From Bolinopsis microptera (taxonomy: Eukaryota > Ctenophora > Tentaculata > Lobata > Bolinopsidae), in the NCBI RefSeq assembly GCF_026151205.1, contig NC_087074.1, forward strand, positions 9,155,726 to 9,219,725: 64,000 bases of DNA. The letters run 5' to 3'. Shown piece after piece: positions 905-44,877 of the stretch (positions are counted from its first letter, which is position 1; every line of letters starts with the position of its first letter). Below the pieces are notes generated by a model that did not search any database, was not told the DNA's origin, and saw nothing but the letters and a program-made list of their open reading frames with translations. A program made the translations under genes and the position numbers.

Positions 905-1020
905 CTAACTGTTACCCATCACTAACGGTTACCCCTCACTTATCGTTACCCCTCACTAATCGTTACCCCTCACTAATCGTTGCCCCTCACTAATCGTTAC
1001 CCCTCACTAACCGCTACCAA
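905..1020 (+). repeat. 17-bp minisatellite at a myosin 3' splice site
   Basis: About seven tandem units of CACTAATCGTTACCCCT with small changes. The last, degenerate unit (CACTAACCGCTACC) runs straight into the acceptor CTTTCAG that opens the first visible myosin exon at 1029. Each unit contains a branch-point-like CTAAY. Confidence 0.8.
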
Positions 1021-1028
1021 ACTTTCAG

Positions 1029-4000
1029 AGGAACTACAGAGGAAGATATTCAGGTTCGCTGCTGGAGTACTACATCTTGGTAACACCCAGCTGAAGTCCA
1101 ACAAGAGAGATGAGGGTTGTACCATTGATGACGCTCAGGTACGATTTGGGAGAGAGTTGATTTTTAGGTGTTTTTAGGGTTTAAAATTTATTCGGTATTA
1201 TCATTAACTTAATGACTGATGATTTGGTTCTTTATAAAGATTAAAATAGATGGTCGATGTGACTTTTAGTGTGTTCGGTATTATTGTAAAGTTAATGGCT
1301 GATGACTTTGATTTGATATCATGTCCTAAGTCTTCAATTGGTGTGCATTCCATACACCGCAAAAGGTTTTCTGCCCGCTAATATAGTAATATAGTAATAT
1401 ATTAGCAGTATTGAATATTTACTAAATACTTCACAGTGGATCGACAAAGCTTGCCACATGTTTGGTGTAAACGCTGTCGAGATGACCAAAGCTCTGATCA
1501 AACCTAGGATCAAAGTAGGAAACGAGTACGTCCACAAGGGTCAGAACGCAGAACAGGTTAGTCGGTCGTGGTCACCAGCTTCAATACCGTCTCTTAATAG
1601 TAAGCTTAGTCAGTCGTGGTCACCAGCTTCAATACCGTCTCTTAATAGTAAGCTTTAAGTCCCAACTTCTACAATGCCAAATAGTGGACAAAATAGGTTG
1701 GTATGAGATGGCTCTAATTTCTAGATTACGACAGTTACCCTACTTCAGGTAAAATACAGTATCAATGCCCTTTGTAAGAGTGTGTTCGAGAAGCTGTTTA
1801 AACTTGTTCTGGACATGTGTAACGAGACACTCGAGACCAAACTCAGGAAGAACTTCTTCATTGGTGTTCTTGATATTGCTGGATTCGAAATCTTCGAGGT
1901 AAGTTGGTTTCTCTAACCTGTATGAATAAATAAACAGTGATATCCCCAGTTTCCTGTTCTCCTCGTTGTATCGTTTTCATGATTTTGTTTCTAATGTGAT
2001 CACGTGGTTAAACACAGTTCTTTCTCAGTTCAACTCGTTCGAGCAGCTGTGTATTAACCTTACAAACGAGAAGATCCAGCAGTTCTTCAATCACCACATG
2101 TTCACATTAGAGCAGGAAGAATACAGGAAGGAAGGTATCAAGTGGGACTTCATCGACTTCGGGCTGGATCTGGAGCCAACGATTGAGCTCATTGAGAAGG
2201 TTTGTCCAAACTTAATTTGTACAAACAAACTTTTAATTTGTACAATAACTTAATTTTGTAAAGTGTGACTCCTACCGTCTCTTGGGTTACTCAGTTTCTG
2301 GCAGTTTGGTGCCTGCCAAATATCGAAACTTATCGGGCAGAGCTTTGGCATGTAAGTGTCAAATTGGAACTTGAGAATATTTAATTGAGGATAATAATAA
2401 TAATATGTTAAGGAAACCACATTACGGGTATTATGCTCGCGAGTTAGTTACAATAAATGTAAAGTGTTGAAATGTTGTAAATACCCTTTATCTCAGAATA
2501 TGGGAGTGTTTGCGGTCATGGACGAGGAATGTATCATGCCAAAAGCTTCCGACCAGACCTTCCTCTCAAAACTTACCCTCTGTCACAACAACAAACATCC
2601 TAAATTCCTTAAACCATCCGCTAAGAGTGAGTTATCTAAATTTTCAGTTAAAATTGTCAAAAACAGATCTGTGAGAGCATGTTAAAATCCTTCCTTAGGA
2701 TTTTATCGTTTTTATTACGATTCCTGTTAAGTTAACCATGGCTTTTTCAGGCTCGATGGGTATAAACCCAGTGCACTTCCAAGTAATCCATTACGCCGGA
2801 GTTGTTGGCTATAACGTCGACGGTTGGTTAGACAAGAACAAGGATCCTCTGAACGAAAATGTTGTCGAGGTTTGTGTACAATTTTTCTCAAGAATTGTGA
2901 GCGTTGAATATTCAAATTATAACCTGAATATCCTACGCTTCCCAAAATGTCTGGTTTCAAATTGAGTAGTCTGGTTTTGGATGTAAAATAAATTTAGACA
3001 CGAAAACCTGCAACCGGTTCTGAGGATACTCAGGATCTTTTCGTTCCGGGTGTGGAGTCCAGTGTCTACTAAAATGTCTACGAAAATGTCTTCGAACTGT
3101 AGCCTGCTCTGCTATTTGTGCTGTTGAAAGAGATAATATTCCCTCTTTGAACAGCACACATAATAAAATAACGATGATAAAACGAAAATATCCATGAGAA
3201 TTGTTCCAACTTTTACAATTATTTTACACAATTATCCATCACAGCTGTTCGTTAAGAGTAAGGACCCCGTATTCAGCAAGCTCTTCGAAGCTCCAGAGGT
3301 AGCTCACACTGGCCGAGGACGTAAGAAGGGAGGATCCTTCCAGACGGTGGCCATGATCCACAAACAGGCTGTGGAGCACCTCCTCAACACCCTCCAACAG
3401 ACCACACCTCACTTCATCAGGTTACTTTATTTCCTTGTAAGGTCAACAACACAGCCTGCAGCAACATTTTGTCACATTCTGGGGAGTTTTTGTAGCTGTT
3501 TTTTTGGTGTCTCGATGTCTTTCCAAATTGCTGAGATATTATCCCCTGCACACGTTGCTGTCTGATGATGCATCATCCCAGCAGCAGCAGACGTACTAAA
3601 ACAAGTTATCTAGCAAATATTTCTGGAGAATTGTTGACCAAAAAGGAGTCCCGACATATGATCTATCATAAAAATTTATTAAACTCAGTCAAACAGACGA
3701 AGCCAAACCAAAGTTTAAAATTCTGCCAAAGCTCAACCAATCAGATAAAAACTGAATCCTAACTAAATTTTGACGCGTGCCTGTCTCAAAATGTTCGTCG
3801 AAAACTGATAGTGATAGCTAGACGCGATGCTTTTAGAGTTTTACAAATATGTAGCACTTGCTAGTGGCGATAAAATCAGTTAAACTTTAACTATAAATCT
3901 CCAGGTGTATCCTGCCCAACATGAAAAAGAAGAGCGGTATTATTGAGGCTAAACTTGTTCTCGAACAGCTCAGGTGCAATGGTGTACTTGAAGGTATCCG

Positions 4001-4361
4001 TATTGTCAGAAAGGGATTCCCTAACCGTCTCCTTTATCAAGAGTTCGTCCAAAGGTTGGTACATTTAATCTAATATAGCAAATCTCTCGCCTTCCACCAA
4101 TATACATTATACATGATACACACATTACATAGTACATACATACAAAAAATTAATGTTACTTTTGCTTTTGTTACTTTTGTTATGTTGTGTGTTCACATTT
4201 TCACAACATTAGGTGGAGTTTATAATGATCTTATTTTCAGGTATACAATTCTTGCCCCCAAGGCTATACCAGCTGGCTTTGTTGATGGAATGAAGGCCAC
4301 TGAGAAACTTGTTGAGGCCCTGAATCTAGAGGAGAATGAATTCCGAATGGGTTACAGCAAG
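1029..4361 (+). CDS. Myosin motor domain, C-terminal two thirds (9 exons)
   Basis: Begins at the [12 protein letters not shown] helix of the upper 50-kDa domain. Exon 1749-1898 carries switch 2 ([11 protein letters not shown]), which senses the ATP gamma-phosphate. Exon 2029-2199 has [20 protein letters not shown], the highly conserved relay-helix region. Exon 2497-2626 has the [16 protein letters not shown] segment and 2751-2869 the [14 protein letters not shown] segment. Exon 3245-3420 carries loop 2 ([16 protein letters not shown]), a Gly/Lys-rich actin-binding loop. Exon 3905-4054 carries the SH2-SH1 helices: the SH2 cysteine is present in [10 protein letters not shown], but the SH1 position reads IRIVRKGF, with Val where vertebrate muscle myosins have Cys. 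Exon 4241-4361 leads into the converter (NEFRMGYSK). The introns are short (about 110-490 bp). Confidence 0.93.
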
Positions 4362-7300
4362 GTAATTATCACTTTCAATTTATACACAAATTTGCTCGCG
4401 CAAAACAGCGATATACACAAATCGAAATCACACGATGAAATTTTAAATAGCTTGGATTGTAAACTTTCATTATTCAGATCTTCCTTCGAGCCGGTGTGAT
4501 CGGATCTCTAGAAGATAAGCGTGATGAGAGAGTAAAGGAGGTTCTGATCGGATTCCAGACCCTTGCAAGAGGCTGGCTGGCCAGGAAGAGGTTCAGGAAG
4601 CTTCTAGACCTGAGAGTAGGAGTGCTCGTTGCTCAGAGGAACACAAGACAGTACTTCATTCTGAGGAAATGGCAGTGGTGGAGACTGTTCACCAAGGTCA
4701 AACCACTCCTCTCCGTCACCAGGTGTGTAGAGAAAATATTACTTACTTGTACTTGAAAAGGTCTCCTCCTAGTCGTTGGAGTGGCCTGCACCACATAGTA
4801 ACTCCTTTCTCCGATGTATTAGGCCTCTCCAATGTACCCTGTTTGTTGCTTGTTGTTCTGCATCTTCTATCGTGATGTTATCGACACCTGTGAAGATTGC
4901 TGCATCCTCCCGGACACATGACAGCCAATTTTTCCGAGGTCTACCTCTTGATCTTTTACCATGCTTTGGGATCCAGTGCAGAAGATAGTTGGGTATTCTT
5001 TCTTCTGGCATCCTCACCACATGGCCAAACCATCGGAGCCTAGCTGCTCGTACGAAAGTATCAACAGGGGCGATGTTGGCCCGCTTACGTACGTCAGCAT
5101 TAGATACGTGATAAAACCATTTGATTTTCAGGATTCTTCTCAGACATCTGTGATGGAACACCTCAAATCTTTTCATCTGCGTCTGTGTGGTATTCCATAC
5201 CTCACTTCCATAAAGCAGTATAGTGAGGACAGCCGCTTTGTAGATCCTGATTTTAGTCGGTGTCTTGATGTTGCGACTGTACCATATACTGCTAAGCTGA
5301 TAGAATGCCCCAGAGGCCTTCTGAATTCGAGCTGATAGTTCTTTGTCGATTGTTCCATCCGCACTGATGATAGCACCCAAGTAAGTGAAGCTGCTGACCT
5401 GCTGTATTGGGAGACCTTCCACATTGATGTCCATAGTGTCGTCTTTAGAAAACGGCCTCTGCGATGCACTTTTACTGACAGCCATGCTCTGTGTTTTGCC
5501 AGCATTAATCTTCAGACCCGCATAGGCACTGTATTTGCAGAGAAGGTCAGTGGTTTCCTGCAGCCCCTCTTTTGAGTTATCTAACATGGCCATGTCATCA
5601 GCGTAATCAGTGTCCAAGAGATGTTTCTCTTCTACCCCGGGGGCTGGCAGCTGTAATAGAGCCCCCTTACTAATGACGGTTCTTCAATAAATCTTTTGTC
5701 TTCTGAGATTGGTGCCTGTCCTTCTTTTTTCGAGGTCTTTGCCCAAGGATTTCCATGGAGACTTGTTGGACAGTTGTCTTGAAGTTGTCCCACATTGATT
5801 CCAGGTCAACCTCAGGTTCCAAACAGTCAAATTTGTTTCTCAGAACAATATTGTATTCGGAAACAAGTGAATGATCACGCAGATGCTCAATAGCAGGAAT
5901 CTCAAGCTTACGATCCTGCTTCTTTTTCACTGACATAAGCTTCATTCTCAGTCGTGCTCTTACCAAATAGTGATCAGACCCAATGTCAGCCCCCCTACAA
6001 ACTTTTACATTTAGCAAAGAGCCTCCAAACTTCTTACTGATACAGATATGGTCTATTTGGTTTACAGTACGACCATTAGGTGATCTCCACGTACCTTTAT
6101 GTATATCCTTTTGCTGAAACATAGTGCCACCGATGGTAAGTTGGTGGGCAATGCAAAAGTCCAACAATCGGGTACCATTGTCATTTGATGAGCTGTGAAG
6201 CGAGTGTCCACCAATGACACCTGACATAGAACTGCAGTCCGATGTGACCTTAGCATTAAGATCACCGAGCAGTAATTTTAAATCATGTCGGGGTAGCTCA
6301 TCGAATGCACTTGACAACTGCTGGTAGAATTCATCCTTATCATTATCTGAAGCCCCCTCAGTTGGCGCATATGCCACAACAACAGAGATGTTCAGGTGTT
6401 GACTATGCAGCCTTGCACTCAACAAACGGTCAGATATTGGTAGATAGGAAATTAATGAATTTTTAATCCTCTTTGAAAGGGTAAGACCGACACCTCGCCT
6501 TCTTATACCGTCCGTCCTCCCTGAATAAACAAGTAAGGAGCCATTATCCAGTAGCTCTGATCCAGTACCAGGCATATGGGTCTCAGTTATACCCAGCAAG
6601 TCCAACTTATACTCAGAGATATTCTGTGATAGCTGGAACAACTGACTTGAACTACTTGTCAGAGATAATACATTCCATGTCCCAAATGTAAGACCTGTTT
6701 TAGAATAATTCGCTGGCTGTTTCTTATTAGAGTCGGAGTCCACATGGGTGATCTGTGGAGAAATAAATCTGCTACAATGACGTGTTCTCCCAACACTCAT
6801 CTGGCCACGGGGGTCCCTTAGGCTTTGCCCCGCCACCTTCATACTGGTATCATCCGTCCTTGCAGAGGGAGCCACACACCGTTTCTTGTTGTTACTTTGT
6901 GATGTTTCTGCAGCAAAATTTTTAGAGAGGAGAAGTTGCCAGCATCTCGCACCCGGTTTTTTATCGACCTTTGCCTGTCTAGATCCATAGTGTTTAGTTG
7001 CATGTCATCTGTTTATACTGGAGTCACCCAGGACAGATTACAATGCTTAATAGTAGCACCTCGAAAAGGATGTGATTCTTCATCACGCACTATGGTCATT
7101 GGAATAGGAGAGGTGATTGGTTACACGATCACTATTCCCTGAGATTAAAAATAATCTCTTGCCACCAAGAGAAAATATTAGGATAGAATAATATTTAGGA
7201 TAGAATATTAGGATAGAATAATATTTTACAGTGGTCATGTCTGCTTTTTCAGAAGCTGTTTTGTTTTTAGGATCGGATTTAATTGTAGTTCATACATAAA

Positions 7301-10300: not shown

Positions 10301-13300
10301 AAGAACGGTCTCGCAAATCAGCTGAAACAGGCTGCCTCCGAGATTGACAATCTACAGGAAGAGCTGGAGATGTCTATCAGCGAACGGGAGGACAAGGAGA
10401 GAATGCTTGGCCTCGCACAAAACGAGCTGATTGCTGTTAAGGGTGTTTGTGAAAGCGAACATGTACCCAGGATCGAAGAACTTGAAACTGAGAACAGGAA
10501 ACTCCAGCTGAAGATTGCAGAATTGGAGGATACTGTTGATGAAGTTCAAACGAAGGCCAACCAAGCTGACAAGACGAGACAGCGTCTCACACTAGAGTTG
10601 GAGGATACAACTATTGAGCTTGATCGTGTGAAGAACGATCTGGGATCTATGGAGAAGAAACAGAGGAAGGTGGATCAACTGGTGAGCGAATGGAAGGCAA
10701 AATACGACCAGGAGACGACAAAGAACGAGGGTCTTGTCAGAGAGATCCAGAAGATCAACACTGATTCTATGAACATGAAGAACTCCAACACAGAGCTTCA
10801 AGATGAACTTGATAATGTGAAGCGACAAATGAAGTCACTCCAGGGTGAAAATGCTGATCTTATTGAACAGCTGGAGGGAGGCGGCAAAGCCACTCACGAG
10901 ATTGAGAAACTGAGGAGAAAGTTGGAGGCAGAGAATGAAGAGCTAAGGAACCAGCTAGAGGAAGCTGAAACTCTTCTGACAATGGAGGAGAACAAGACCT
11001 CTAAGCTAACTCTAGAGCTTAGCCAGCTGAAAATGGAAATGGAGAAGAGGCTCGGAGAGAAGGACGAGGAGACCGACAAGGACAGAAAGAATCTGCTGAG
11101 ACAGATCGACTCTCTGCATCAATCTATCGAGGATGAAACCAAGATTAAGAACGACCTGATGAAAGCCAGGAAGATGGCTGATACTGAGGTCGCTGGACTC
11201 CACGATGACCTTGACAATGCCGAGAAAACAATAGGAACTCTAAACAGTAACCTAGGCAAGCAGCAGAAGGCAATCAACGAGCTCCAAACAGCGCTCGAGG
11301 ACTCTAACAAGAATGGAGAGAACCTCAAAACAGCGCTTATTAAGAGTGACAAGAAGGCCTCTACTCTTGCTAACGAGAAGAGCGATCTCGAAGCGGCAGT
11401 TGAGAGAGTCGAGAGACTCCTTAAGAGCATGGAGAACGAGAAAGCAGAGCTCACCGGTCAAGTCGCCAACCTCGAAACTCAGGTTTGTTTTATACAGAGA
11501 GTCCAGTGGTTAAAATACTAAATCATATAATTTTGCGATCTGGTGTAATTTTGTTGTTTTATGTTCACAATAACACTCTCACTACATTTCACTTTAGATA
11601 ACTCTATGTTATATACGGTTTTTACGGTGTAACCGCTTTATATTGATTACATATTTTTGGCAATAATAATAACGATGTACACCCTGCAGCGTAATTCTGT
11701 GGAGAGCTCTCGTAAGAAGCTGGATGCAGAATGCCACCAGTTGCGTGACTCAATCGAGGATCTTGAGGAGGAAAAGAGGACTGCTGATACGATGACTCAA
11801 CGAGCTAACGAGGCCCTTCACCGCACTCAGAGCGAACTAGCTGTAGAACAGGAAGCTAAGAGCAACCAAGAGAGAGCTTGCCAGACTCTTACCAGGAGAA
11901 TTGTCGAACTTGAGGTAAAGATATATGAGGGCCGAGGGGTTGTCAGGTGTAGTTAATGTTATATATTATTACATTTGAAGATTTGTCACACTTAAGCTTT
12001 TGTCTGTGGTACATATTTGCATAATCAGTTCCTTTCAGAGCCAACTCGAGGACTTGGAACAGCAAGCAAGAAACGCTGGCAAGTCCAAGATAGCCGCCCT
12101 GCAGAACAAGGTCCGACAGTCTGAAGCTGATCTCGACAACGAGTCTAAGAGGCGCATGGACGCGGAGAAGGTAAGCTTTAAAAAACATCAAAACATCATT
12201 AGAAAACTAGATATACATTCATTCTCAATCGAGTTGTTTCTTTAAACATCAACTCAATATTCTACCATGCATAGTTTCGAGATTGTAAGTTATTCTCTCT
12301 ATCAGGCTGTTAAGAAACTGGAGCGAGTGATCAAGGAGAACGCGTTCAACGCAGAGGAAGATCATAAGACGATCCAAAGACAGCAAGCAACTCTCGACAT
12401 GAACAACACCAAAATCAAGACACTCAAGCGAAACATGGATGACTCTGTAAGGCTCACAATATAAGCAAAAATTCCGAAATTTCAAATTCTCAGTTTTCCT
12501 AGTTTTTTTCCATGTGTATGAGCTGAAACTGTTAACTGATAGACTCTTCTTTCCTCTTCAGGAGACTCAAGTGTCTCAGCTGCAATCCAAGCTGAGGAAG
12601 GCTCAAGCTGAGTTAGCAGAGGCCGAGGAGCGGGCGGATCTGGCTGAGAGCTCTCTAAGCAGAGCTGCTGGCAGGAACAGAGCGGCTGCTGGTCGAGTAG
12701 CTAGGACGGTAAGTAAAGAACTTGGTTAACAGCTACCGAAGTTAACTTCGGTATCCGCGCTGCTGATCAGTTTTAAGCGCTTTTACTGTCATCTACCTTG
12801 GCTAGATTTTTAATTATTTTATCCAGGAGCTCTTTGATTTGGTTAGCCCGACCAAACCTGGATCTGTAAGTGGACTGCTTACTGTGAATTTGAAGCACGT
12901 ATCCCACGAGCATTTTGCAGCATACACAATTAATGAGGCCCAAATAATGAATGCTTTTATGTTCATATTCATAAAAAAGTACAACAATCAATTTACCGAG
13001 AGCATAAGCTTGAACGTTTTTGCATTACTATAACAGCTATGATTGAATCACTTTGGAGGTTTTCAGCATAAAAAAGGCAACATGCAAAGCAACGAAGCAT
13101 TTTATGTTGTTGAAATTGTAAGAATCAAATGTCTCTATGTTCTCTGTACATTCATAGGCTGTTTTGCTTATCTTTCAAAAGTTTTTTTACCCGGTACTGC
13201 AAGCCAAATTGTCTCTGCTAGAGTGGATCCCGTATTTTCTCGAGCCTGCTCGAGCGGATCCCGATTGTTTTTCTAGCACACCGAGCGTACCCACTTTTGA

Positions 13301-15253
13301 AAGGTAATCAGAGTATTTTTATCATCTTCAGAATTCCCCACTAAGTATGGCCTGTCTTATAGTATATATATATAGTATATAGCGCTGAACATTCCCAATA
13401 TTTAGGTCCCTGGTGTACGCCACCATTTGTGCAAATTTGTTTTATATATATATTAGGCAATTCCCGTAGTTAATTTGTCGAAGTGAATCTTTTGAGTGGT
13501 TTCTCGGTCGTTTAAGTTGAGCCAATATGCACCTGTTGTTTGTTGTTGCACTGCTAGTGCTATTATATGCTCTTTAGTCTTCAAGCTTTACCACAAACGG
13601 CACCTTTGCCTTTTTTCAGCCATCATTTCACGCGACAAATCACACATCACATAATGGCACATTTGTCACAAGACATCGTCATAGCAACGTGACATGACAT
13701 TTGTCACGTGTTACATTTGTCACGTGTTACAGGAGTACGTTCCAAGAAACTCTCGAAATAAGCAGGAAGATGAAGAAGAGGAATAGTAAGTGTGCTGCAT
13801 GTGTGTGTGTGTGTGTTTCACTAGTTACCATGGTCTTTCAGCATGTGTTATCATGGTAACTGCATGTTTTTTTGTGTGGTAACTGCATGTTTTTTGTGGT
13901 CACTGCATGTTTTTTGTGGTAACTACATGGTTTATGTTTATGGTCATTGCATGTTTTTTGTGTCTACGTTCACGGCATCTTTTCTGAGTTTTCAACTCAA
14001 GATATTTTATTATTAAGGGACACATTTTACATGGTTTGCTGGGCTGCAATCCAACAAAATTAGGTTAAATACTTGTAGTGGGAGCTTTCTAGTTGTTAAT
14101 CGCTAAAAGTAAAATATTAGTTTGGTTCGAGTTCAATAGAATATCTAACACAGGTGCCTTGTCAAATAAGTTGATTTAACACAGAGTTCAAGATTTTGAC
14201 ATAAGATTCTCTGACTACTCGTGTTTTCAGTTATAAATTTTCGAAGCACTTTTGTGATTAACTCTTCATTCATAAAAAAAGATATTACGTCTTGAAAATT
14301 AAGCTTTTAAACTTATTGTTGTGCATGTCTGTTCAGAAGTGGCAATACCACCTCGCACTAACCTCCCTCCTCCCAGAATACCACCCCACACTAACCTCCC
14401 TCCTCCCAGAATACCACCTCGCACTAACCTCCCTCCTCCCAGAATAACACCTCACACTAACCTCCCTCCTCCCAGAATACCACCTCACACTAACCTCCCT
14501 CCTCCCAGAATACCACCTCACACTAACTTCCCTCCTCCCAGAATACCACCTCACACTAACATCCCTCCTCCCAGAATACCACCTCGCACTAACCTCCCTC
14601 CTCCCAGAATACCAGCCCACACTAACCTCCCTCCTCCCAGAATAACACCTCACACTAACCTCCCTCCTCCCAGAATACTACCTCACACTAACCTCCCTCC
14701 ACCCTGCCACCCAGAATACCACCTCACACTAACCTCCCTACTCCTAGAATACCACTTCACACTAACATCCCTCCTCCCAGAATACCACTTCACACTAACC
14801 TCCCTCCTCCCAGAATACCACCTCACACTAACCTCCCTCCCAGAATACCACCTCACACTAACTTCCCTTCTCCCAGAATACCACCTCACACTAACCTCCC
14901 TCCACCCAGAATACCACCTCACACTAACCTCCCTCCTCCCAGAATACCACCTCACACTAACCTCCCTCCTCCCAGAATACCACCTCACGCTAACCTCCCT
15001 CCTCCCAGAATACCACCTCACACTAACCTCCCTCCTCCCAGAATACCAACTCACACTAACCTCCCTCCTCCCAGAATACCACCTCACACTACCTCCCTCC
15101 TCCCCCAATACCACCTCACACTAACCTTCTTCACAGAACAGCAGCAGTGGTGGGTCGTACAGTGGGAAACTCCAGAGAATGGGCAGCACCAGCTCTACCT
15201 CGGGCACTCCTCCCCTAACTCGCACCAGCTCTAACTCGAGCACTAAAGGATAA
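1029..15253 (+). CDS. Myosin II heavy chain, striated-muscle type (5' partial, 24 exons)
   Basis: Actin-based motor of muscle thick filaments. It hydrolyses ATP, binds two light chains at the neck and dimerises through a long coiled-coil rod. Exons joined by GT-AG introns with matching phase: 1029-1138, 1437-1556, 1749-1898, 2029-2199, 2497-2626, 2751-2869, 3245-3420, 3905-4054, 4241-4361, 4478-4722, 7311-7668, 7800-8007, 8140-8254, 8367-8523, 8752-8862, 9486-9652, 9795-9983, 10162-11482, 11690-11914, 12039-12170, 12306-12446, 12562-12708, 13733-13785, 15142-15253. They encode about 1,640 residues against 1,940-1,990 usual for the family, so only the N-terminal SH3-like region, P-loop and switch 1 (about 330 residues) are outside the window. 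The reading frame is intact. The family is certain; striated rather than non-muscle type is judged from loop 2, the neck ([10 protein letters not shown]) and the rod. The last two exons are less certain than the rest. Confidence 0.93.
1559..1654 (+). repeat. 48-bp tandem duplication just inside a myosin intron
   Basis: Two nearly identical 48-bp units (each with TCGTGGTCACCAGCTTCAAT) start three bases after the donor GT at 1557. The length is a multiple of three, so a reading frame happens to run through both copies. The next exon joins in frame without them, so they are read as intronic. Confidence 0.8.
4478..4722 (+). CDS. Myosin neck exon: converter end and two light-chain-binding IQ motifs
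   Basis: Encodes [17 protein letters not shown], the end of the converter, followed by the first IQ motif ([19 protein letters not shown], essential light chain). A second, degenerate IQ motif ([15 protein letters not shown], regulatory light chain) and the hook [17 protein letters not shown] close the neck. The exon ends two bases into an Arg codon, completed at 7311 after a 2.6-kb intron. That intron holds an antisense LINE. Confidence 0.93.
4769..5617 (-). pseudogene. LINE reverse transcriptase, C-terminal part from the YADD box
   Basis: Starts just before the catalytic [11 protein letters not shown] motif of the RT palm. It continues through [12 protein letters not shown] (thumb side), the conserved [11 protein letters not shown] block and [15 protein letters not shown], both typical of LINE C-termini, then RGRPRKNW near the end. 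The preceding RT blocks (primer grip side, first catalytic Asp) are absent, so it cannot be an active polymerase. The nominal start is only the first Met of the frame; the frame itself is open further upstream. Confidence 0.85.
5670..6875 (-). pseudogene. LINE apurinic-type endonuclease domain
   Basis: Exonuclease-endonuclease-phosphatase fold of about 230 residues. Visible motifs: FGTWNVLSL (catalytic Asn), [10 protein letters not shown] (catalytic Glu), [19 protein letters not shown] (Asp and Asn of the active site), QIDHICIS and GSDHYLVRA (terminal catalytic Asp-His). All key residues are present. After the domain the frame ends in DLLKNRH shortly before the deletion that removed most of the RT. 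In life this domain nicks target DNA to prime reverse transcription. Homologous frames in genome annotations are often mislabelled as host proteins. Confidence 0.88.
7170..7232 (+). repeat. Short AT-rich tandem repeat (AGGATAGAATAAT type)
   Basis: Three imperfect copies of TATTAGGATAGAATAATATT lie between the 5' edge of the antisense LINE and the next myosin exon. They could be target-side microsatellite or part of the LINE 5' end. Confidence 0.6.
7311..12708 (+). CDS. Myosin rod: S2 and light meromyosin coiled coil (12 exons)
   Basis: Continuous heptad-repeat coiled coil of about 1,090 residues, rich in Glu, Lys and Leu and almost without Pro. It forms the dimeric rod and packs thick filaments through its C-terminal third. 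The small early exons carry S2; the single large exon 10162-11482 (440 codons) holds the middle of the rod. The short Gly-rich interruptions [10 protein letters not shown] at the end of exon 8752-8862 and [11 protein letters not shown] in the large exon resemble skip or hinge sites. The end, [26 protein letters not shown], corresponds to the assembly-competence region of other myosin rods. Every exon junction keeps frame. Intron 8863-9485 shows nothing beyond non-coding sequence. Confidence 0.94.
12709..13732 (+). other. Intron before the myosin tailpiece exons, no gene seen
   Basis: About 1 kb between the last rod exon and the tailpiece exon. It contains only short AT repeats (TATATAGTATATAG near 13365) and no exon-like frame. 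Its last 70 bases carry a short tandem repeat at the acceptor. Confidence 0.6.
13659..13732 (+). repeat. 16-bp repeat ending at a myosin 3' splice site
   Basis: ACATTTGTCACGTGTT occurs twice head to tail (13697-13712, 13713-13728), with a partial older copy at 13659. The final ACAG is the acceptor of the exon at 13733. Confidence 0.8.
13733..15253 (+). CDS. Myosin non-helical tailpiece (last two exons, alternative C-terminus)
   Basis: Exon 13733-13785 encodes [17 protein letters not shown] and stops two bases into a codon at an ideal donor (GTAAGT). Joined to the acceptor at 15141, the codon becomes TAC (Tyr). The frame then runs 36 codons of Ser/Thr-rich sequence ([18 protein letters not shown]..., SNSSTKG at the end) to TAA at 15251, a plausible phosphorylatable tailpiece. 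If the intron is retained the protein ends at TAG 13784-13786. If the AG five bases earlier (15136), or any AG in the upstream array, is used, the junction reads TAA. Two C-termini are therefore encoded: one ending after the acidic EEEE, one with the Ser-rich tail. This is inference from frame; no transcript was available. Confidence 0.7.
13800..13973 (+). repeat. (TG)n and 21-bp repeat after the last myosin donor site
   Basis: A short TG run follows the donor. Then come about five units of the type GGTAACTGCATGTTTTTTGT (13854-13973). Each starts with GGTAACT or GGTCACT, resembling a 5' splice site and the true donor context GTAAGTGTGCTGCATG. Confidence 0.7.
14346..15136 (+). repeat. 33-bp minisatellite made of 3' splice-site units
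   Basis: About 22-23 tandem copies of a 33-bp unit of the form ACCACCTCACACTAACC + TCCCTCCTCCCAG + AAT. Each contains a branch-point-like CACTAAC, a pyrimidine tract and CAG. The native acceptor of the last myosin exon (CACACTAACC, TTCTTCACAG) is a diverged member at the downstream edge. Because the unit is 11 codons long, frames stay open on both strands; these are not taken as genes. Confidence 0.92.
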
Positions 15254-15514: not shown

Positions 15515-15520
15515 AATAAA
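15515..15520 (+). terminator. Polyadenylation signal of the myosin gene
   Basis: AATAAA about 260 bases after the stop codon, in AT-rich sequence. Confidence 0.6.
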
Positions 15521-19899: not shown

Positions 19900-20535
19900 T
19901 TGTATACGATATTCAAACTTCGACATCATCAAATTAACAAACTATCTTTAGCCAGGAATCAAGAAATATCATCAGGTGATGCTAAAAAGACTTATTCCAT
20001 CGTTAATAAGTTGCTCAATAAAGAAAAAGTTAGTACTACTACACCTTCTTGCTCTTCAAATCTTGAGAGTGCTAACAACTTTGCACAGTTCTTTAAATCA
20101 AAGGTCGACAACATATACAACAACATTTATTTAGAACAACAATCCCAAGATTCTCCTAACTCAGATGAATTTGTTCCTCTTTCTAATAGCCCAAAGATAG
20201 TACAATTCCGTCATGTGTCTGATGAAGAACTAGTAAGCATCATAAAGAATATGTCTAACAAATTCTGTGATCTTGACCCCATACCTACAAAGATTCTCAT
20301 CAAGTGTCTCCCAGAACTCCTTCCTCTGATCTCATTTATAGTCAATGAATCATTAGTTAAAGGTGAGTTTCCTATAAAACTTAAGGAGGCTCTCATTCGT
20401 CCAAGTTTGAAGAAACGTGGCCTTGACGGTGAATCTCTATCTAACTATAGGCCTATTAGCAATCTCTCATTCTTGTCAAAAATCATTGAGAAGTGTGTAT
20501 CTATACAGCTCACCAGTTATCTTGAGGATAACAAC
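19900..20535 (+). pseudogene. LINE reverse transcriptase, N-terminal half (interrupted)
   Basis: Encodes the linker and RT fingers: VSDEELVSIIKNMSNKFCDL, DPIPTKILIKCLPELLPLIS, ALIRPSLKK and NYRPISNLSFLSKIIEKCV, all standard blocks of LINE RTs, ending in SYLEDNN. The frame leaves LINE sequence exactly at the transposon edge; the second half continues in the same frame at 21817 with LLSKVQSGYRK. The first codon given is only where the recognisable frame opens. Confidence 0.88.
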
Positions 20536-21808
20536 CCCAGTGGCAAATAGTCAGGCGTCCAGGAATTTAACACCTAGTCAAAATTTGTTGATAACCGGTA
20601 AAAAAAGATTCTTGTGGAAAAAATATTCACATTAATTTAAAATTAAATCAAAATTGGTCGCTCTCAGGGCTAACGCGATGTTACATCATTTTATCGACTC
20701 GAAGTTCGAATCGAGCGCATTCCTAGATTCCATGACTATTTCTTACCTATAAGATTGCTTGACTATTTTTTGCGCATTCAGACACCAAAAAACGCGCAGA
20801 AAACGCGAGCTATCCATTCCTCCTTCCTCAACATCCCGGAATATGAAAAAAATAGTCATGTAAAATAGTCATTTGAAATAGTCATGCAAAATTTCAGCTC
20901 TGATACGCTAAAATATCAAGTTAATCTTAAACAATCGACAATCTAATATGAATCCTCCCAATCCTCCCAGCCATATTAACTGGTGAACGGTGTAAATATA
21001 GAGCGGTATTTTAAAATGTAGCATTCAAAATTTTATGGATTCAAGTTGGCTCCTTTAGTCTAGATTCATTTAGAAAATTCTCGAAGTTCGAGTAATACAG
21101 TATTCTCAGGGTTTGGCGCTTAAGGAAGCTTCACATCCGAGACCGATTTCCACGAATCAATTTAATATTGTAGCTACAAGTCAACAACAGTGCAAGTGGG
21201 AAAGAAGTGAATCTAGCCATTGCTACTATATCAGGGGAACTCGTGTGTTCTAGGCTTAAGCAAGCTTCACATCCTAGATCATCTAGAGTACAGTGCAGAC
21301 AACCCCCTCCATTATACATCCCTATCCCGCTTTAAGTCCGAAGTTTATCATTGTTTATTGTCCAATATTGTATCTAACCTGGCAGAAGCAAGCTTCAGAT
21401 CCTAAGTCAGGCCATAAATATCGACACAAGGTCGATGCCACTTTCAGAGTAGCGAATCGTTCATCATGCTGATGAGAGTCTAATCTTTGAACCTCGATCC
21501 ACCGATTATGTATGAAGAATAGTAAGGAGATTTCTGTGGGCTAGGCTCTATACTTCTTTTAAAAAATATTTCCTTGCGTTTCAAATAAATTAAAGAATTC
21601 TCAGAAATTTTTTATTTAATTTCAAAATTTGCAATTGCATATTCATCCGGTAATTATTCTAATGGATACGCTAAGCATTTCAAACTAATCTTGACCTGGG
21701 AGAAGAGCTGACCAGTGACAAGTCGGCCGCAAAGCGGCCGAAAAATATATAGCCTTTTTTTCTTCCCAAAATGGATTCCTAGTCATATTTAAAATTTATT
21801 CCACTGGG
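20536..21808 (+). mobile_element. 1.27-kb non-autonomous DNA transposon, hAT-like, inside the LINE
   Basis: The edges are exact. The left end is CCCAGTGGCAAATAG and the right end complements to CCCAGTGGAATAAA; both sides are flanked by the 8-bp ATAACAAC (20528-20535 and 21809-21816). An 8-bp duplication with CAGTGG-type ends fits the hAT superfamily. The motif AAATAGTCA recurs about six times near the left end in both orientations (20545, 20735, 20761, 20850-20885), like transposase-binding subterminal repeats. No transposase frame is present. AAGCTTCACATCC-type repeats occur three times at 21128-21400. Confidence 0.8.
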
Positions 21809-21816
21809 ATAACAAC

Positions 21817-23064
21817 TTGCTTTCTAAAGTTCAGTCCGGCTATAGGAAGTTTCATAGCTGTGAAACTGCAACAACCAGAATCCATAACGACATCTTGATA
21901 ACTATTGACAAGAAAACTAAAGTTGTTCTTTTACTTCTAGATTTGAGTGCTGCCTTTGATACTGTCAATCACCCAAGATTAATCAAGAAGCTAAGATCTG
22001 CTTATGGCATTACAGGCATTGCTCTTACATGGATCAGGTCCTACTTGGCTAACCGTTCATTTTGTGTCAAAGTCAAGGATTCGTCTTCCTCAGCAACTGT
22101 TCTTGAGATAGGTGTGCCACAAGGTTCAATCCTTGGCCCCCTGCTATTCATATTGTACACCAAAGATCTTGAGAACATTGCAAGTATGCATGGGTGCTGT
22201 ATTCATTTGTATGCTGATGACACCCAGCTGTATTTCACTCTTGATTCTGATGACCCATCACAGCTAGAGCACAATATGGAACACTGTATGTCTGATATCA
22301 AGAAATGGATGACAAACAATTTCCTTCAACTGAATTCTTCTAAGACTGAAGTCATCGTTATATCCTCTAAATTTGACTCAACAAATATTCCAGCCTCTCT
22401 ACAGATTGTTAAGGATCAAGAGCCACATGTTGTTAGTGGAACTGTGAAGAGTCTTGGGCTGTATTTGGACAGTTATCTTTCAATGAGTGATCAGATTACG
22501 TCAGTGGTTCAAGCATGTAATATTCAGATCAGAAATTTGTGGTTTATTGCATCAAAACTGTCTTTTAACCTTAAGATTCAGCTTGTTCATGCTCTAGTAC
22601 TCTCTAGAATTGATTATTGCAATAGCGTATATTTTGGACTGAGCTCTTATGATTTAAGTCGTTTACAGAAGGTGCAAAATTCTGCTGTAAGATTTATTTT
22701 CGGGAGAGGAAGAAAGGCACACACTACTCCACTACTTAAGAAAGTTCATTTTCTACCAGTTAGATTTAGAATAGATTTTAAGATTGCCCTACTTGCCTAC
22801 AAGTGTTTAAATAATATAGCTCCTCCTTACTTAAAAGAGTTGATATTTCCTAGGCAGCAAAGTTTTAAAAATGTACGTCTTGATAATGATTATTTTTACC
22901 TTAGTTTTCCGCCCTCTCCTAACTATGTAAACACAGAGAAAGCTTTTAGTCACTGTGCAGTTACAGTATTTAATTCCTTGCCATACGACATAAGATCAGC
23001 TGAGTCAGTTACATCTTTCAAGACCAAACTTAAAACATACTTCTTTTCTCTAGCATTTGATTGA
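21817..23064 (+). pseudogene. LINE reverse transcriptase, C-terminal half
   Basis: Contains the first catalytic Asp block (VVLLLLDLSAAFDTVNH), GVPQGSILGPLLFILY, the catalytic CIHLYADDTQLYF box, the thumb and the typical C-terminal region (LSRIDYCNSVYFGL, LQKVQNSAVRFIFGR, FNSLPYDIRSAESVTSFKTK). The frame is fully open for 415 codons with no decay, so the copy is young apart from the insertion. It begins right after the target duplication, so the nominal first codon is not a real start. Confidence 0.92.
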
Positions 23065-23232
23065 TTTTGCATTTACATAGGTAAAATGAACTTGTCATGT
23101 CTAATTTTCAATTAAACTAAGCTCAGTTAATGTAAGAGCCGCTTTAGAAAGCACTGGAGTTTATCTCCAGGATTAAATTATATCGAGTTATATGATTCAG
23201 CTATAAGGCGGTTTATAAATGTTGTATTTATT
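23055..23232 (+). repeat. LINE 3' tail, copy 1
   Basis: Runs from the last codons of the RT (FD, stop) to TTGTATTTATT, followed by (TTA)n. Same sequence at 24871-25048 except one C/T difference at 23198 versus 25014. Confidence 0.93.
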
Positions 23233-24880
23233 TATTATTATTATTATGTTACTTAAAGTGAGTGTCCCGATGGATTTTGGAAGGCACCTGATAGGATCCC
23301 CGACTCACAGCAACCTAAAACTAAACACAAGTGAAGGAGGTGAGGTACGAGCCAGTTCAGTGATCCTATCCTTCAACAGCCCCGTCATTGATCACATGAC
23401 AACCATCCTTCACATGACCAGTGTGGACATGTTGGAGTTCAGTAAAGCTGCTGTTCAGCTGCTTGTTGATGCTGCTTACTCTGGAACTGCAGAGGGGATA
23501 ACCAAGGAACTCTTCAGGGATATCAATAAGATAGCAAATGTGTTTGAATTGTCTTGGTTAGCTGAAAAGTGTGCTGAATATTTCACTGAAGTAGCTGACT
23601 CGGTTAAAACACCGTCTTATACAGAACTGCTTTATTTATTTGAAGAGGCAGGTTTTGTTTATGAGAAGCTGAAGATAAAAGATTATCTAAATCTTACCAT
23701 CAAAAAGATTGAAATAATGAAGTGGAAAAAGGAGTTTATAGACAGGTATCTTGAGAATGCAGACAAGTTATCTACACAGAAACTAGACATGGTGATAGAG
23801 CTAGCTGGTTCTGAAGTTAACTGTGTTGTACAAACTCTAACTAATCAGTTATCAGAACAGTTAAAAGTTCAGGGTTCAAGTCTTTCTGTTTCTTGTCAGT
23901 ATTTTCTGGAAAATTCTAATTTGTTTCTCTGTAAAAAGTCTGATGAAGTTTTGTTTGACCACTTATTTGATATTCTTGGGGAGCTTCCAGACGAAAGAAT
24001 AAGATGGACTTTTGAGCTTCATCGCAAAAGTTGTAAAAATAGAACTGAGTTGGCTCATAGTTCTGATGAATTAAGAGGATCCAGCTCAACAACAGTATCT
24101 AGATGTAACATTATACCGAACTTGTACCATGATATGGATATGAACATGTCATTTAATCTGTTGCTTGACTGGCTGTCTGTGTCTGAGGATGTTACCAGTT
24201 TGATGATGGCTATAGAAGCTGTGTACACATGGAACAGATACCGGTACTATTATTGTAGAAAGATCAATAAGAAGAGTTGCAATGTTGACTTTTCTGCTTT
24301 GTCTGCTAGACTAACAGACCTAGTAGAAAGGCGAGGCTGGTCTCTTTTACCGTCCTACTTCACGTATTATGAGTATGATTTAGGTCTAAAGAATAACGAA
24401 GGTGAACAGGGGAGGTATAGTTTAAAACAATTCTGTACAGCTAATAAACAGGATACCTCATACGTTACCGTAATTCCCTGTATTAAATGGTGTACAAACC
24501 CACTGAGTTCAATACACTGTAGAGACTCCAAGATGATCTTCCACTTCCAACACCCGTCAGTAACATCTTGTAGTTTAACTGGTAAATGTGGGTTTATTCT
24601 AAAAACAGTCCCCAGTGAAGCCGCATTGTGGACCTTGAGACTGTGTACTGATAAAGAAGATTACCTGGGTGAAACTGTGCACTTTCATGATGAGATAAGA
24701 GCAGAGAAAATGCATGTTTTTATTAGTGACATTAATAACGAACTATTGCCAATAACGTGGTTAGGTTGCCTTCATGTTAAAGATGCTCATAAAGATATAT
24801 ACGTCTGGGAGAGAAACTATCTTAAAATTGATTTTGAATCAAACAACTTTCAAGTTATGTATAATAGTAAATTTGATTGA
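23219..24880 (+). CDS. Intronless BTB-domain protein between two LINE tails
   Basis: An open frame of 553 codons, much longer than chance. The N-terminal part (LKLNTSEGGEVRASSVILSF, DMLEFSKAAVQLLVDAAYSG, LFRDINKIANVFELSWLAEK) matches a BTB/POZ domain, which dimerises and often recruits Cullin-3; a BACK-like helical region follows. The C-terminal half (about residues 300-550, many Cys, Trp and Tyr) I do not recognise. The first ATG lies inside the LINE tail, so its first ten residues are LINE-derived (MLYLFIIIIM). More likely starts are Met10 (23246) or Met18 (23270). The last codons and stop (FD, stop) coincide with the start of the second LINE tail. It may be a transduced retrogene; whether it is expressed is unknown. 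Confidence 0.75.
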   Translation: MLYLFIIIIMLLKVSVPMDFGRHLIGSPTHSNLKLNTSEGGEVRASSVILSFNSPVIDHMTTILHMTSVDMLEFSKAAVQLLVDAAYSGTAEGITKELFRDINKIANVFELSWLAEKCAEYFTEVADSVKTPSYTELLYLFEEAGFVYEKLKIKDYLNLTIKKIEIMKWKKEFIDRYLENADKLSTQKLDMVIELAGSEVNCVVQTLTNQLSEQLKVQGSSLSVSCQYFLENSNLFLCKKSDEVLFDHLFDILGELPDERIRWTFELHRKSCKNRTELAHSSDELRGSSSTTVSRCNIIPNLYHDMDMNMSFNLLLDWLSVSEDVTSLMMAIEAVYTWNRYRYYYCRKINKKSCNVDFSALSARLTDLVERRGWSLLPSYFTYYEYDLGLKNNEGEQGRYSLKQFCTANKQDTSYVTVIPCIKWCTNPLSSIHCRDSKMIFHFQHPSVTSCSLTGKCGFILKTVPSEAALWTLRLCTDKEDYLGETVHFHDEIRAEKMHVFISDINNELLPITWLGCLHVKDAHKDIYVWERNYLKIDFESNNFQVMYNSKFD

Positions 24881-25385: not shown

Positions 25386-26290
25386 AATGTCCGAAGTAAA
25401 ATAAGAGTTGAGATTATAAGTGATAGTTAATGCTTGTGATCTCATTGTTGGTTTGTAGACAAGACAAGTTTTGTTCTAGAAAACTAGAAGTGTACTTGTT
25501 TACCAAGTTGAGGTTCCTCCAGTAACAAAGAGGACTGTAATTATCAGCTGCAGAATTAATATTCTGTTCCTGATCTCATGATAACTTATTTTTCCAACCT
25601 TCTTGTTATGTTAATGTTTGTAAGCTCTACCAGCTGTACACCACTACATTACACCTTATAATCTAGAATATTGATATGAGTCTTTATCTGATTGAGTAGA
25701 CTTCATGTTAGCATGGGAGCAAATGTTAAAAAATTGTAACATTACTTTTGGAATTGGATTGATTTTTGTACCTACAAAATTTATACTTGATTACAGTTGA
25801 TTACGGAGGGGGGTAAAAATTGCTAAAATATTGATTACGTAATGTGTGAAGGACCCCTGGCCCTTACTAACATTTTTGATGATCTTATGTACCATCATGT
25901 TTTGATTCGATTTGATAGATGTGGTCAACAAACTTTCATATTCTTCATGGTAGAAGGGACACCAAGCTTTGCTTGTATAGTGTAGAGCAGTAATAATCCA
26001 CTCATATGAATATTTTCATGAAGTCTTTCTTCCTTTGATCACTTATACTATGTTTCATTCTGTTTTTTGTACCACCCACATGCCACTTTTAAGTTATAGT
26101 TAGGAAATTGCCCAGTACAGGAATACCCCAAATTAAGTGCGTGATTTTTAATCAATTGTAACCTCAGTTGGGATGGATATTTTGATGCGATTGAAACTGG
26201 CTATCAAAGTATTACTATTAGCTGTATCTAATATGATACTCCCTGTGACCACACGCTCTAAAGTGTAATATAAATTTAATGTGATATTTG
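25386..26290. other. Upstream region of TBP, no gene seen
   Basis: AT-rich and without exon-like frames except for a MITE fragment at 25797. It probably contains the TBP promoter and either a 5'-UTR intron or a trans-splice acceptor region. Confidence 0.5.
25797..25857 (+). mobile_element. 3' fragment of the GGGGTCGTTCACAT MITE
   Basis: TTGATTACGGAGGGGGGTAA ... GATTACGTAATGTGTGAAGG ACCCC matches the right end of the complete copy at 42134-42306. Confidence 0.7.
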
Positions 26291-26305
26291 TTCAGGAAGG
26301 TAAAG

Positions 26306-26986
26306 ATGAGTGAGTACGAAGGACCACCCAGTGTCAGTTTGTCTGCCCCTTCCTTGGCTGACCTCCAGTCTGTACCCACACCTGGACCTTCCTACTATGG
26401 TCTCAACTCTCCCGCAGCTTTCACTCCCTCCACACCTATGGACCACGGTATAGAACCCACCATTCAGAACATTGTCTCTACAGTCAACTTGGGCTGTAGA
26501 CTTGATCTCAAGCAGATTGCGCTGCATGCAAGGAATGCTGAGTACAATCCAAAACGATTTGCAGCAGTGATAATGAGGATAAGAGAGCCGCGGACCACTG
26601 CGTTATTGTTCAATAGTGGCAAGATGGTCTGTACAGGGGCCAAGAGTGAAGACGAATCCAGACTTGCTGCCCGAAAATATGCGAGGGTTGTTCAGAAATT
26701 AGGTTTCCCTGCCAAATTCACCGAGTTTAAAATTCAGAATATGGTAGGCAGTTGTGATGTTAAATTTCCAATTAGACTTGAAGGGCTATATGCACAACAT
26801 GGACAGTTTTCTCATTATGAGCCTGAGTTATTTCCTGGGCTTATTTACAGAATGTTGAGACCAAAGATTGTTCTCCTGATATTCGTGTCGGGAAAAGTTG
26901 TACTAACGGGAGCAAAAGACAGACAAGATATAAATGCTGCATTTGAATGTATTTATCCCATCTTGAAGAATTTCCGGAAAAAATAA
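26306..26986 (+). CDS. TBP: TATA-box-binding protein
   Basis: General transcription factor that bends promoter DNA as the core of TFIID and also serves Pol I and Pol III. 226 residues. The N-terminal 48 residues are short, Pro/Ser-rich and lack the poly-Gln of vertebrates. The saddle core follows from about residue 49 ([20 protein letters not shown]) as two direct repeats. Each repeat ends in the signature ([39 protein letters not shown]), and the DNA-intercalating Phe residues are present in [23 protein letters not shown] and LIFVSGK. The coding region has no intron. The start is fixed by the conserved MSEYEGPP-like opening; an in-frame stop lies 24 bases upstream (26282). A 3' splice acceptor (TTTGTTCAG, ending 26295) lies 10 bases before the ATG. 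Confidence 0.97.
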
Positions 26987-28238: not shown

Positions 28239-29075
28239 ATGAATGAGGGGGGACTAAAGGACAGACATCGGAGAGAGTTAAAAGAGCTACAAGCAAAGAT
28301 CCAAGCTGTTAAAAAGTCAGTTCCAAAAGGAGACAAGAAAGCAAAGAAAAAATCAGTCGAAGAAATCGCGTTACTGCAGAAAGAGCTATCTGATAGACAT
28401 GAGCGGGAGCTGAAAGAACTTGAATCTTTGTCAAATGAAGTTGAACATATAAATTTAGAAGAAGGCCACAAAGCTGGTGTTGTGGGAGAACAACACGATG
28501 AGTCTGTAAAGAAGATGAGTAAATCAGAGAAAAGAAGAGAAGCTAAAGCTGCAGCAACCCAAAAGAAACTAGAGCAGATCTCTGAACTGAGCTCTGAAGT
28601 AACCAAGCGCTCCACCGAACACCTCAAGATCACAGAGCACCTCAAATCTTATAATTTATCAGTGTACGAGATAGCAGCAGACGGTAACTGTATGTTCTAC
28701 GCGCTACAGCACCAGCTACAAGACCGGGGGTTACCACAAAGTGTGAACGATCTACGCGAGACTGCTGCCAACTACATGACCCAACACCAGGACGACTTTT
28801 TACCCTACTTAGTGCACCCTAAAACGGGAGACATGTTGAGTTTGGAGGAGTTTGCTACTTACTGTCGGGAGATTAAAACTGATGGGGTGTGGGGTGGGAT
28901 GCACGAGGCTCACGCTATCAGCTCATCACTTAAAGTACCCATCAAAATACTTCAGGCGGATGTACCTCCTATTGTTTTTGGTGAGGGGTACGTGCAGGAG
29001 CCAGTTATCCTGCTTTATTATAAACATAAGTACGGTTTGGGAGAACATTATGATTCGATAACGCCGTGCAGGTAG
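28239..29075 (+). CDS. OTUD6B: OTU-domain deubiquitinase, OTUD6 family
   Basis: Cysteine protease that removes ubiquitin; in other animals OTUD6 proteins act on translation-associated targets. 278 residues. The N-terminal helical, Lys/Glu-rich region (LKELQAKIQAVKKSVPKGDK) is characteristic of OTUD6. The OTU domain begins near residue 140 with the catalytic loop AADGNCMFYAL (Asp and Cys), has TYCREIKTDGVWGGMHEAHA in the middle, and ends with GLGEHYDSI, which holds the catalytic His. The start is decided by an in-frame TAA directly before the ATG. An acceptor-like AATATTCCAG ends 10 bases upstream. The coding region has no intron. OTUD6A/B cannot be separated here; the symbol follows the ancestral form. 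Confidence 0.93.
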   Translation: MNEGGLKDRHRRELKELQAKIQAVKKSVPKGDKKAKKKSVEEIALLQKELSDRHERELKELESLSNEVEHINLEEGHKAGVVGEQHDESVKKMSKSEKRREAKAAATQKKLEQISELSSEVTKRSTEHLKITEHLKSYNLSVYEIAADGNCMFYALQHQLQDRGLPQSVNDLRETAANYMTQHQDDFLPYLVHPKTGDMLSLEEFATYCREIKTDGVWGGMHEAHAISSSLKVPIKILQADVPPIVFGEGYVQEPVILLYYKHKYGLGEHYDSITPCR

Positions 29076-44130: not shown

Positions 44131-44486
44131 AAGAGTGTGCACAATATGAGATCCGAATATATTGAAGAATGGGGAAAACAGTAATAGTGGGATAATTATA
44201 GTGGTAAAGAGTTTACTAGAGAGTGGTCCACAAGGAGGTTACGTGGGAGAGGTTGAGGTGCATGCTGTGATGGGTGGTCAAGAGCTGTCCAGCCAAGTTT
44301 ATATGGCCTAAAATAAACACACAAAGCCTACAATAGTTCAGAAACCGAGTAAGGAGGTGCGGCTACTGATGAGAAGCCTCCTTAAAGTTTATTTGGGTTA
44401 GAAACGACATCTGGGTCCCTACCCTCGCACAAGATTATTCTCAATTTTCTTGTTGTGTTCCACAACTATACTTCTGTATACTTCAG

Positions 44487-44673
44487 TGATTGGGCTGATG
44501 ACTCCAGTGAAAGGGCTGGTGACTCTAGTGAAAGTGCTGGTGACGATGAGAAAGACCATAAACCAGGGATTCCTTCGGGAGCATGTAAGATTATATCCAA
44601 AGTTTGTTCGCCAATGGGGTGTGTCTGGGTGTCAAAGATCTTCAAGGTGGGTGCTACTTGTGATGAACTCTAG
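44487..44673 (+). CDS. Possible terminal exon of a small Cys-rich protein (copy 1)
   Basis: An acceptor-like ATACTTCAG is followed by a 61-codon frame. An acidic part (DWADDSSERAGDSSESAGDD) leads to a compact part with four Cys (SGACKIISKVCSPMGCVWV, then GATCDEL) and TAG. The acidic-then-Cys-rich layout looks like a processed secreted peptide, but the upstream exon with a signal peptide is not seen and the family is unknown. A longer frame on the same strand (MLCSTT...) competes. Low confidence. Confidence 0.3.
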
Positions 44674-44877
44674 AAGGATGGGGTGGTAATACTCGGTCTG
44701 GCCGTCTGGAAGCCCATAGAATTCCAGTTCAGAAACCGAGTAAGGAGGTGCGGCTACTGATGAGAAGCCTCCTTAAAGTTTATTTGGGTTAGAAACGACA
44801 TCTGGGTCCCTACCCTCGCACAAGATTATTCTCAATTTTCTTGTTGTGTTCCACAACTATACTTCTGTATACTTCAG

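Follow-up and report, generated by a model that had tools for sequence, protein, structure and literature searches.

Tandem repeats that duplicate splice sites have been described in amphioxus, where such "mirages" occur in the globin genes BflGb6 and BflGb9 and in Adh3, troponin C, and PGBD5 (PMC3087553, PMC3902484). The mirages are reported to leave splicing undisturbed and to yield no aberrant mRNAs (PMC3087553, PMC3902484), and the BflGb6 mirage has 6 and 3 repeat units in two haplotypes (PMC3087553). Here we describe an array of this general kind that lies ahead of the last exon of a myosin heavy chain gene in the ctenophore Bolinopsis microptera, in a stretch of 64,000 nucleotides (NCBI RefSeq assembly GCF_026151205.1, contig NC_087074.1, positions 9,155,726 to 9,219,725, forward strand; called the window below, with positions counted from its first letter). 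The array is a real and striking structure, and it is probably (by our estimate, a probability of about three in four) a minisatellite within the intron that arose by growth from the native acceptor, one of many splice-junction arrays in this genome, whose units are normally passed over as decoys.

The array covers 14344..15106 on the plus strand and consists of 23 head-to-tail units of ~33 bp with the consensus AATACCACCTCACACTAACCTCCCTCCTCCCAG. Tandem Repeats Finder places it at 14344-15127 (period 33, 23.6 copies, 91% matches, score 1307), and a unit-by-unit split gives 24 units, 20 of which are exactly 33 nt, with unit 11 at 41 nt, unit 15 at 30 nt, and unit 23 at 32 nt. The native 3' splice site forms a diverged unit 24 of 30 nt, whose last base is 15136. 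CTAAC, a pyrimidine tract, and a terminal AG are kept in 22 of the 23 upstream units; unit 23 (15075-15106), which adjoins the native site, is the sole unit that has neither CTAAC nor the terminal AG. The distance from the branch A to the G of the AG is 15 nt in 20 units, 23 nt in unit 11, and 12 nt both in unit 15 and at the native site, and the triplet 3' of the AG is AAT in all 22 intact units. The original prediction of an acceptor amplified about 22-fold ahead of the last myosin exon, with a full signal set in each unit and the native site as a diverged last member, thus agrees with what is found, within a span that starts at 14344 and has its acceptor end at 15136 instead of the 14346 and 15141 proposed. 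CTAAC and AG are invariant among the 20 full-length units, but so are 23 of the 33 unit positions overall, and their invariance is therefore no evidence of selection. When a 66-nt consensus was compared with the whole 264.65-Mb genome in a search that skips very common words, all 11 matches fell at the array locus, ruling out a dispersed repeat. The array was also ruled out as an exon, as the phase-0 frame reaches a stop after five residues in 21 of 22 units; the open frames that run through its units reflect the unit length of 33 bp.

The strength of the units as acceptors was scored with acceptor and donor matrices built on this genome's own myosin and kinesin genes, using 63 introns with inferred junctions (61 inferred introns minus two poor fits and one duplicated junction, plus five introns read by hand). 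The 22 intact units score 3.08-10.14 with a median of 7.55, and the genome's inferred real acceptors have a leave-one-out median of 8.29 and a lower quartile of 5.17, so the units score like ordinary acceptors. Of 3433 AGs elsewhere in introns, only 2.3% score as high as the median unit; in 793 nt, 1.05 AGs would be expected to do so compared with the 13 of 22 units that do, although the units are mutual copies and not independent. The branch-type motif YTRAY is two to three times commoner 15-44 nt upstream of acceptors than beyond 100 nt, which makes CACTAAC in the array a plausible candidate branch point. These scores support the view that every unit is a plausible acceptor. Taken together, the position of the native site as unit 24, the acceptor-like scores of the units, and the presence of a second acceptor-side array with CACTAAY units in the same gene (Table 1) suggest growth of the array from the acceptor.

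Like the amphioxus mirages, this array places minisatellite-like repeats in tandem at the edge of an intron, and the repeats contain splice signals (22 of 23 copies); just as mirages affect both 3' and 5' boundaries, this genome has both acceptor-side and donor-side arrays (PMC3087553, PMC3902484). The myosin unit differs from the mirages described there in that it holds the end of the intron only, without exon sequence: after the AG, the units read AATACC where the exon reads AACAGC, so the repeat does not span the boundary. Four other loci in this genome (K22, K11, K19, and C2b) do span an intron-exon boundary, as amphioxus mirages do. The copy number also differs, with 23 extra copies in the myosin array compared with 6 and 3 units in BflGb6 (PMC3087553), and the animals belong to different phyla. 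On this comparison, the myosin array would work like a mirage without being classed as one. The proposal that no regulator of this form had been described is too broad, since the mirages are a described precedent (PMC3087553, PMC3902484); the array is close to a described kind and a member of a recurrent class in this genome. Within the terms and library searched, no description of such an array in a ctenophore was found.

The acceptor sequence TTCTTCACAG ends at 15136, and 15141 is the second AG of CACAGAACAG. The acceptor at 15136 scores 9.04, exceeding 21 of the 22 intact units, and 15141 scores 5.32. It had been proposed that donor 13785 is joined to 15141, that use of any unit creates a TA+A stop, and that only 15141 opens the Ser-rich tail. 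An A does follow the AG in every intact unit, but the TA+A stop arises only with donor 13785, and 15136 opens the tail in phase 0 from donor 12708 or from the candidate cassette donor 12865. From donor 13785, the acceptor at 15136 and the three units computed each give TAA, and the tail is opened by 15141 or 15144 only; with every other acceptor tested, the exon at 13733-13785 carries or completes a stop. When a unit is entered from a phase-0 donor (12708 or 12865), five residues and a stop follow in 21 of 22 units (NTTSH in 15 of them); the stop codon is supplied by the TAA within the CACTAAC of the following unit. Since this TAA is gone from unit 23, the frame entered at unit 22 stays open for 47 residues.

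A paralogue (L006) offers a parallel, as its predicted 3' end has a phase-0 donor (9.64) followed by a Ser-rich phase-0 last exon that begins with FSSSIGPSTTVRRSS, has an acceptor scoring 7.8, and reads in full FSSSIGPSTTVRRSSVTQSSNAAAAE before its stop. Based on this parallel, the higher score of 15136 (9.04 versus 5.32), and the higher score of donor 12708 (10.37 versus 5.94 for 13785), 15136 is most likely the real tail acceptor, joined in phase 0 to donor 12708 or 12865. The pair 13785 to 15141 was accordingly set aside as the primary model, its donor and acceptor both being weaker and the paralogue pairing phase-0 sites. The simpler model thus has 15136 as the tail acceptor and the exon at 13733-13785, if real, as a stop-carrying cassette. 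An AATAAA poly(A) signal is present at 15515, and neither AATAAA nor ATTAAA was found between 12709 and 15408.

Under the proposed mechanism, the gene's own 3' splice site, with its branch point, pyrimidine tract, and AG, would have been tandemly duplicated, and the array would have grown by slippage or unequal exchange. Duplication of an acceptor would add extra acceptors on the intron side, and in the transcript 22 acceptor-like decoys in succession would normally be skipped. Exon definition is well established: internal exons would be recognized together with the closest splice site on either side, and the last exon together with the poly(A) signal (here AATAAA at 15515), so that the exon-proximal copy at 15136 would win and yield the Ser-rich tail while the other copies are tolerated. 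If the exon-proximal copy wins in general, this would also explain how arrays can stand on both sides of exons in genes that presumably need correct splicing. A decoy 3' splice site has reportedly been found in caspase-2, where a single intronic element is said to have a shown repressive effect. The myosin units resemble it in being acceptor-like and non-productive; they differ in forming a tandem array and in that their decoy effect is predicted.

Other arrays in this genome also run into splice junctions. On C1, a GAS2-domain exon (Pfam E 3.7e-18) is preceded by 44 copies of a 19-bp unit of the CACTAACACTCACATTCAG type, each containing CACTAAC and most also CAG. In myosin genes, AAGTTACTAATC is repeated 22 times and ends 46 nt upstream of an exon match, and AGTAACCA, repeated 240 times, extends up to an acceptor. 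A kinesin gene contains 26 copies of a 49-mer made of an acceptor and the exon start FSFIDLAG, and in the kinesin gene L036 (reversed, 2155-5065 and 5535-7280), an acceptor-type 26-mer (112 copies) and a donor-type 33-mer (52 copies) flank neighboring exons on two sides. Donor junction arrays of 52, 25, and 22 copies, like the acceptor arrays of 26 and 112 copies, stand beside motor-domain exons; in the myosin gene at C2:3172800-3179100 (L025, reversed 1675-2559), the unit is a 40-mer with the exon end ACGCTCAG joined to the donor GTAGGAGAG, present 22 times at 100% identity. Several junction-array periods (49, 26, 40, and 35) are not divisible by three, and splicing to the wrong copy would in most such cases cause a frameshift. 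These cases support the conclusion that arrays continuous with the acceptor or donor they copy are a recurrent feature of this genome.

This recurrence bears on the proposal that competition between the units and the true site determines how much truncated relative to Ser-rich C terminus is made. Such competition is suggested by the 22 acceptor-like units, by the early end of the protein that use of a unit would cause whichever donor is used, and by the candidate cassette exons upstream of the array. Alternative C-terminal exons of muscle myosin genes are, in addition, supported by ESTs in Capitella and Lottia (PMC3912159), and alternative rod-end exons are likewise plausible here as candidates (12827-12865 and 13733-13785); the part of that account dealing with such exons does not mention a repeat array (PMC3912159). 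However, comparable or larger arrays adjoin exons of kinesin and other myosin genes, including motor-domain exons, the amphioxus precedent is reported as passive (PMC3087553, PMC3902484), and the native site outscores nearly all of the intact units. Control of isoforms or of the C terminus by the array is thus possible but unsupported, and we regard it as improbable; a tolerated repeat born from a splice site is more likely than a dedicated regulator.

As a test against chance, arrays were surveyed in genes chosen without regard to arrays, namely 11 myosin-head loci (PF00063, with 73 matches among the matches listed) and 19 kinesin genes (PF00225, with 109 matches that gave 20 regions chosen on exon matches before arrays were viewed; nine loci were left out, of which two lay in one exon, one was a near-identical duplicate, and six were short or had few matches). 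Arrays with a period below 7, with fewer than 3 copies, or lacking flanking exon matches on both sides were dropped, as was the studied array. Among the 75 intronic arrays, 17 end within 100 nt of the next exon match, where arrays placed uniformly in the gap would give 7.47 (p = 5e-5). For distances to the donor, the counts are 8 within 100 nt (7.47 expected, p = 0.47) and 7 within 50 nt (3.79 expected, p = 0.06). The acceptor-side excess is present in the myosins alone (8 of 48, 2.71 expected, p = 0.002), in the kinesins alone (9 of 27, 4.76 expected, p = 0.008), and when only the largest array of each intron is counted (16 of 40, 6.49 expected). Three acceptors and six donors of the 63 introns with inferred junctions lie inside an array.

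These counts speak to the alternative that the array is an ordinary minisatellite without a splice-site origin that by chance sits at an intron end and contains acceptor-like words. The surveyed gene regions are full of intronic minisatellites with unrelated units, many of them far from junctions, and base coverage by arrays is not highest at junctions, as this alternative would have it; yet the last unit includes the branch-point region of the native site, and in the myosin and the kinesin set alike, more arrays end close to acceptors than uniform placement would predict. A coincidental origin is improbable.

The crowding of array ends at acceptors also points toward a broader possibility, in which a process tied to splice junctions, beyond chance slippage, makes acceptors and donors seed minisatellites across the genome, exon definition lets genes tolerate dozens to more than a hundred copies of their own sites, and arrays such as this one leak low, copy-number-dependent levels of alternative isoforms. 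This is further suggested by the abundance of tandem CACTAAC. In the whole genome, three CACTAAC words spaced 15-45 nt apart gave 7217 matches compared with 588 for the reversed word, the one control word used. Among the matches listed, tandem CACTAAC occurs at 7 distinct places in the first 2.47 Mb of C1, and the reversed word at 4 places in the full 26.2 Mb of C1 (CACTAAC is present at one of the 4 as well), or ~18 times more places per Mb for CACTAAC. We consider this extended account unlikely.

Several observations weigh against growth from the acceptor, or against its generality. Exon positions in the survey come from profile hits and splice matrices and are themselves predictions. Per-base array coverage shows no excess at junctions and rises toward the interior of introns, and in the 119 array units of the myosin set CTAAY does not stand out from its permutations, so that enrichment of the branch word there is unconvincing despite the large whole-genome count. 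Only 2 of the 7 listed C1 CACTAAC arrays clearly or possibly adjoin a sense acceptor. One of the 7 is the array ahead of the GAS2 exon; a second (L051) runs into an acceptor scoring 7.51 ahead of a 40-residue open frame, a possible exon; another (L046) adjoins a good donor (8.6) on the opposite strand; four of the 7 have no recognizable adjoining exon. A CACTAAC array is therefore not always a splice-site array. At the myosin locus itself, loss of both signals from unit 23, the one nearest the true site, could also mean selection against a competitor, and the intron holds the alternative-looking exons at 12827-12865 and 13733-13785.

The repeated CACTAAC could alternatively serve as a STAR-protein element, in which 22 ACUAAY words bind a Quaking- or ASD-2-like protein, perhaps together with (UG)8, and control inclusion of exon 13733-13785 or of the tail exon. 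STAR proteins recognize a bipartite site, in which a further UAAY lies no more than about 20 nt from the ACUAAY core. The array supplies 22 copies of ACTAAY, and the same intron contains (TG)8, the only tract of at least 6 TG/CA units in the window and one of a rare type (4 such tracts in 248 kb of gene regions). There is precedent in intron 1A of C. elegans unc-60, where CUAAC repeats and a UGUGUG stretch are bound by ASD-2 and SUP-12 (PMC3469465), and the myosin locus resembles it in that a single intron of a gene of the contractile system combines repeated CUAAC with a UG tract. The unc-60 element differs in consisting of a few juxtaposed words with shown binding and effect (PMC3469465), whereas here an acceptor-like array of 22 intact copies, known from sequence alone, lies ~530 nt from the UG tract. 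In addition, the unit contains one UAAC per 33 nt and no second UAAY half-site within 20 nt of the core, and the gene may not be a muscle gene. The STAR_dimer profile PF16544 found no match in this genome, nor in any control genome, and this negative therefore carries no weight either way. We judge this function to be very improbable.

The identity of the gene bears on where its transcripts should be sought. Its rod matches striated-muscle-type myosin heavy chains (best match 3jbh, "myosin 2 heavy chain striated muscle", E 1.3e-57). That the genome is probably a ctenophore's is also suggested by a glutamate-receptor locus, which matches the 256-residue domain ML032222a (ML standing for Mnemiopsis) with 213 bits, compared with 255 bits for the 875-residue GluK2 chain. 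A search for COX1, directed at the mitochondrial code, had no match. Immediately upstream of the window (C3:9154012-9154485, L008), two alternative exons cover loop-1/switch-1 and, as read, encode 63 and 73 residues, the 3' one being ten residues longer. Mutually exclusive loop-1 exons, with the 3' one nine residues longer, are the published mark of Mnemiopsis Mhc2 (PMC3912159), and with mutually exclusive loop-1/switch-1 exons of which the 3' one is longer, the gene as predicted matches ctenophore Mhc2 (MHCIIb2). In Pleurobrachia, expression of the Mhc2 orthologue is reported as strictly non-muscular (PMC3502136). The muscle assignment in the original prediction is therefore doubtful (PMC3912159, PMC3502136); the gene is not necessarily a muscle gene, and its transcripts may be absent from muscle cDNA.

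Should the survey results apply to the whole genome, such loci are natural experiments in splice-site choice, with junctions repeated 22-112 times beside exons that presumably need correct splicing. They would allow direct study of what favors the copy closest to the exon and of a possible role of splice signals as seeds of tandem repeats. They would also extend the amphioxus phenomenon to a very distant animal lineage at copy numbers far above those of BflGb6 (PMC3087553).

Table 1. Features of the myosin gene in the window (candidate exons are read from sequence alone)
Feature	Position	Strand	Basis
Second acceptor-side array, same gene	911..1018	+	17-bp GTTACCCCTCACTAATC (CACTAAY), 6.4 copies, ahead of acceptor 1028 (score 4.84)
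Last conserved rod exon	12562..12708	+	Phase-0 end; donor ACG/GTAAGT, score 10.37
Candidate 39-nt cassette exon (13 residues)	12827..12865	+	Phase 0 at both ends; donor 5.82
Candidate exon (17 residues) ending TA/GTAAGTG	13733..13785	+	Acceptor 5.37, donor 5.94
(TG)8 tract	13800..13815	+	Just inside the intron after 13785
Tandem array, 23 units	14344..15106	+	Tandem Repeats Finder and unit split; 22 units with CTAAC and AG
Native 3' splice site, 24th unit	15107..15136	+	Branch A 15124, AG 15135-15136; score 9.04; predicted use
AACAG, second AG at 15140-15141	15137..15141	+	Score 5.32; opens the tail only from donor 13785
Last-exon coding part, Ser-rich tail (38 residues)	15137..15250	+	Phase 0; parallels the last exon of paralogue L006

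Elsewhere in the window, Pfam matches in open frames comprise a reverse transcriptase (21817-23061), a BTB domain (23219-24877), a TATA-binding protein (26288-26983), an OTU protease (28239-29072), and an amidohydrolase (35739-36947); the frame at 19900-20547 had no Pfam match. Three further repeats are present. At 30066-34959, 4.9 kb of degenerate TCC-rich repeats consist of TCCTCCTCCTCCTCAG-like units, and a similar stretch occurs in the C9 myosin gene. At 59058-60012, the 11-bp unit GGTGTTACAGA is repeated 87 times and is open in several frames because of its 11-bp length. At 44335-45250, a 391-bp unit is present in 2.3 copies at 100% identity, as would be expected of a very recent duplication or an assembly effect.

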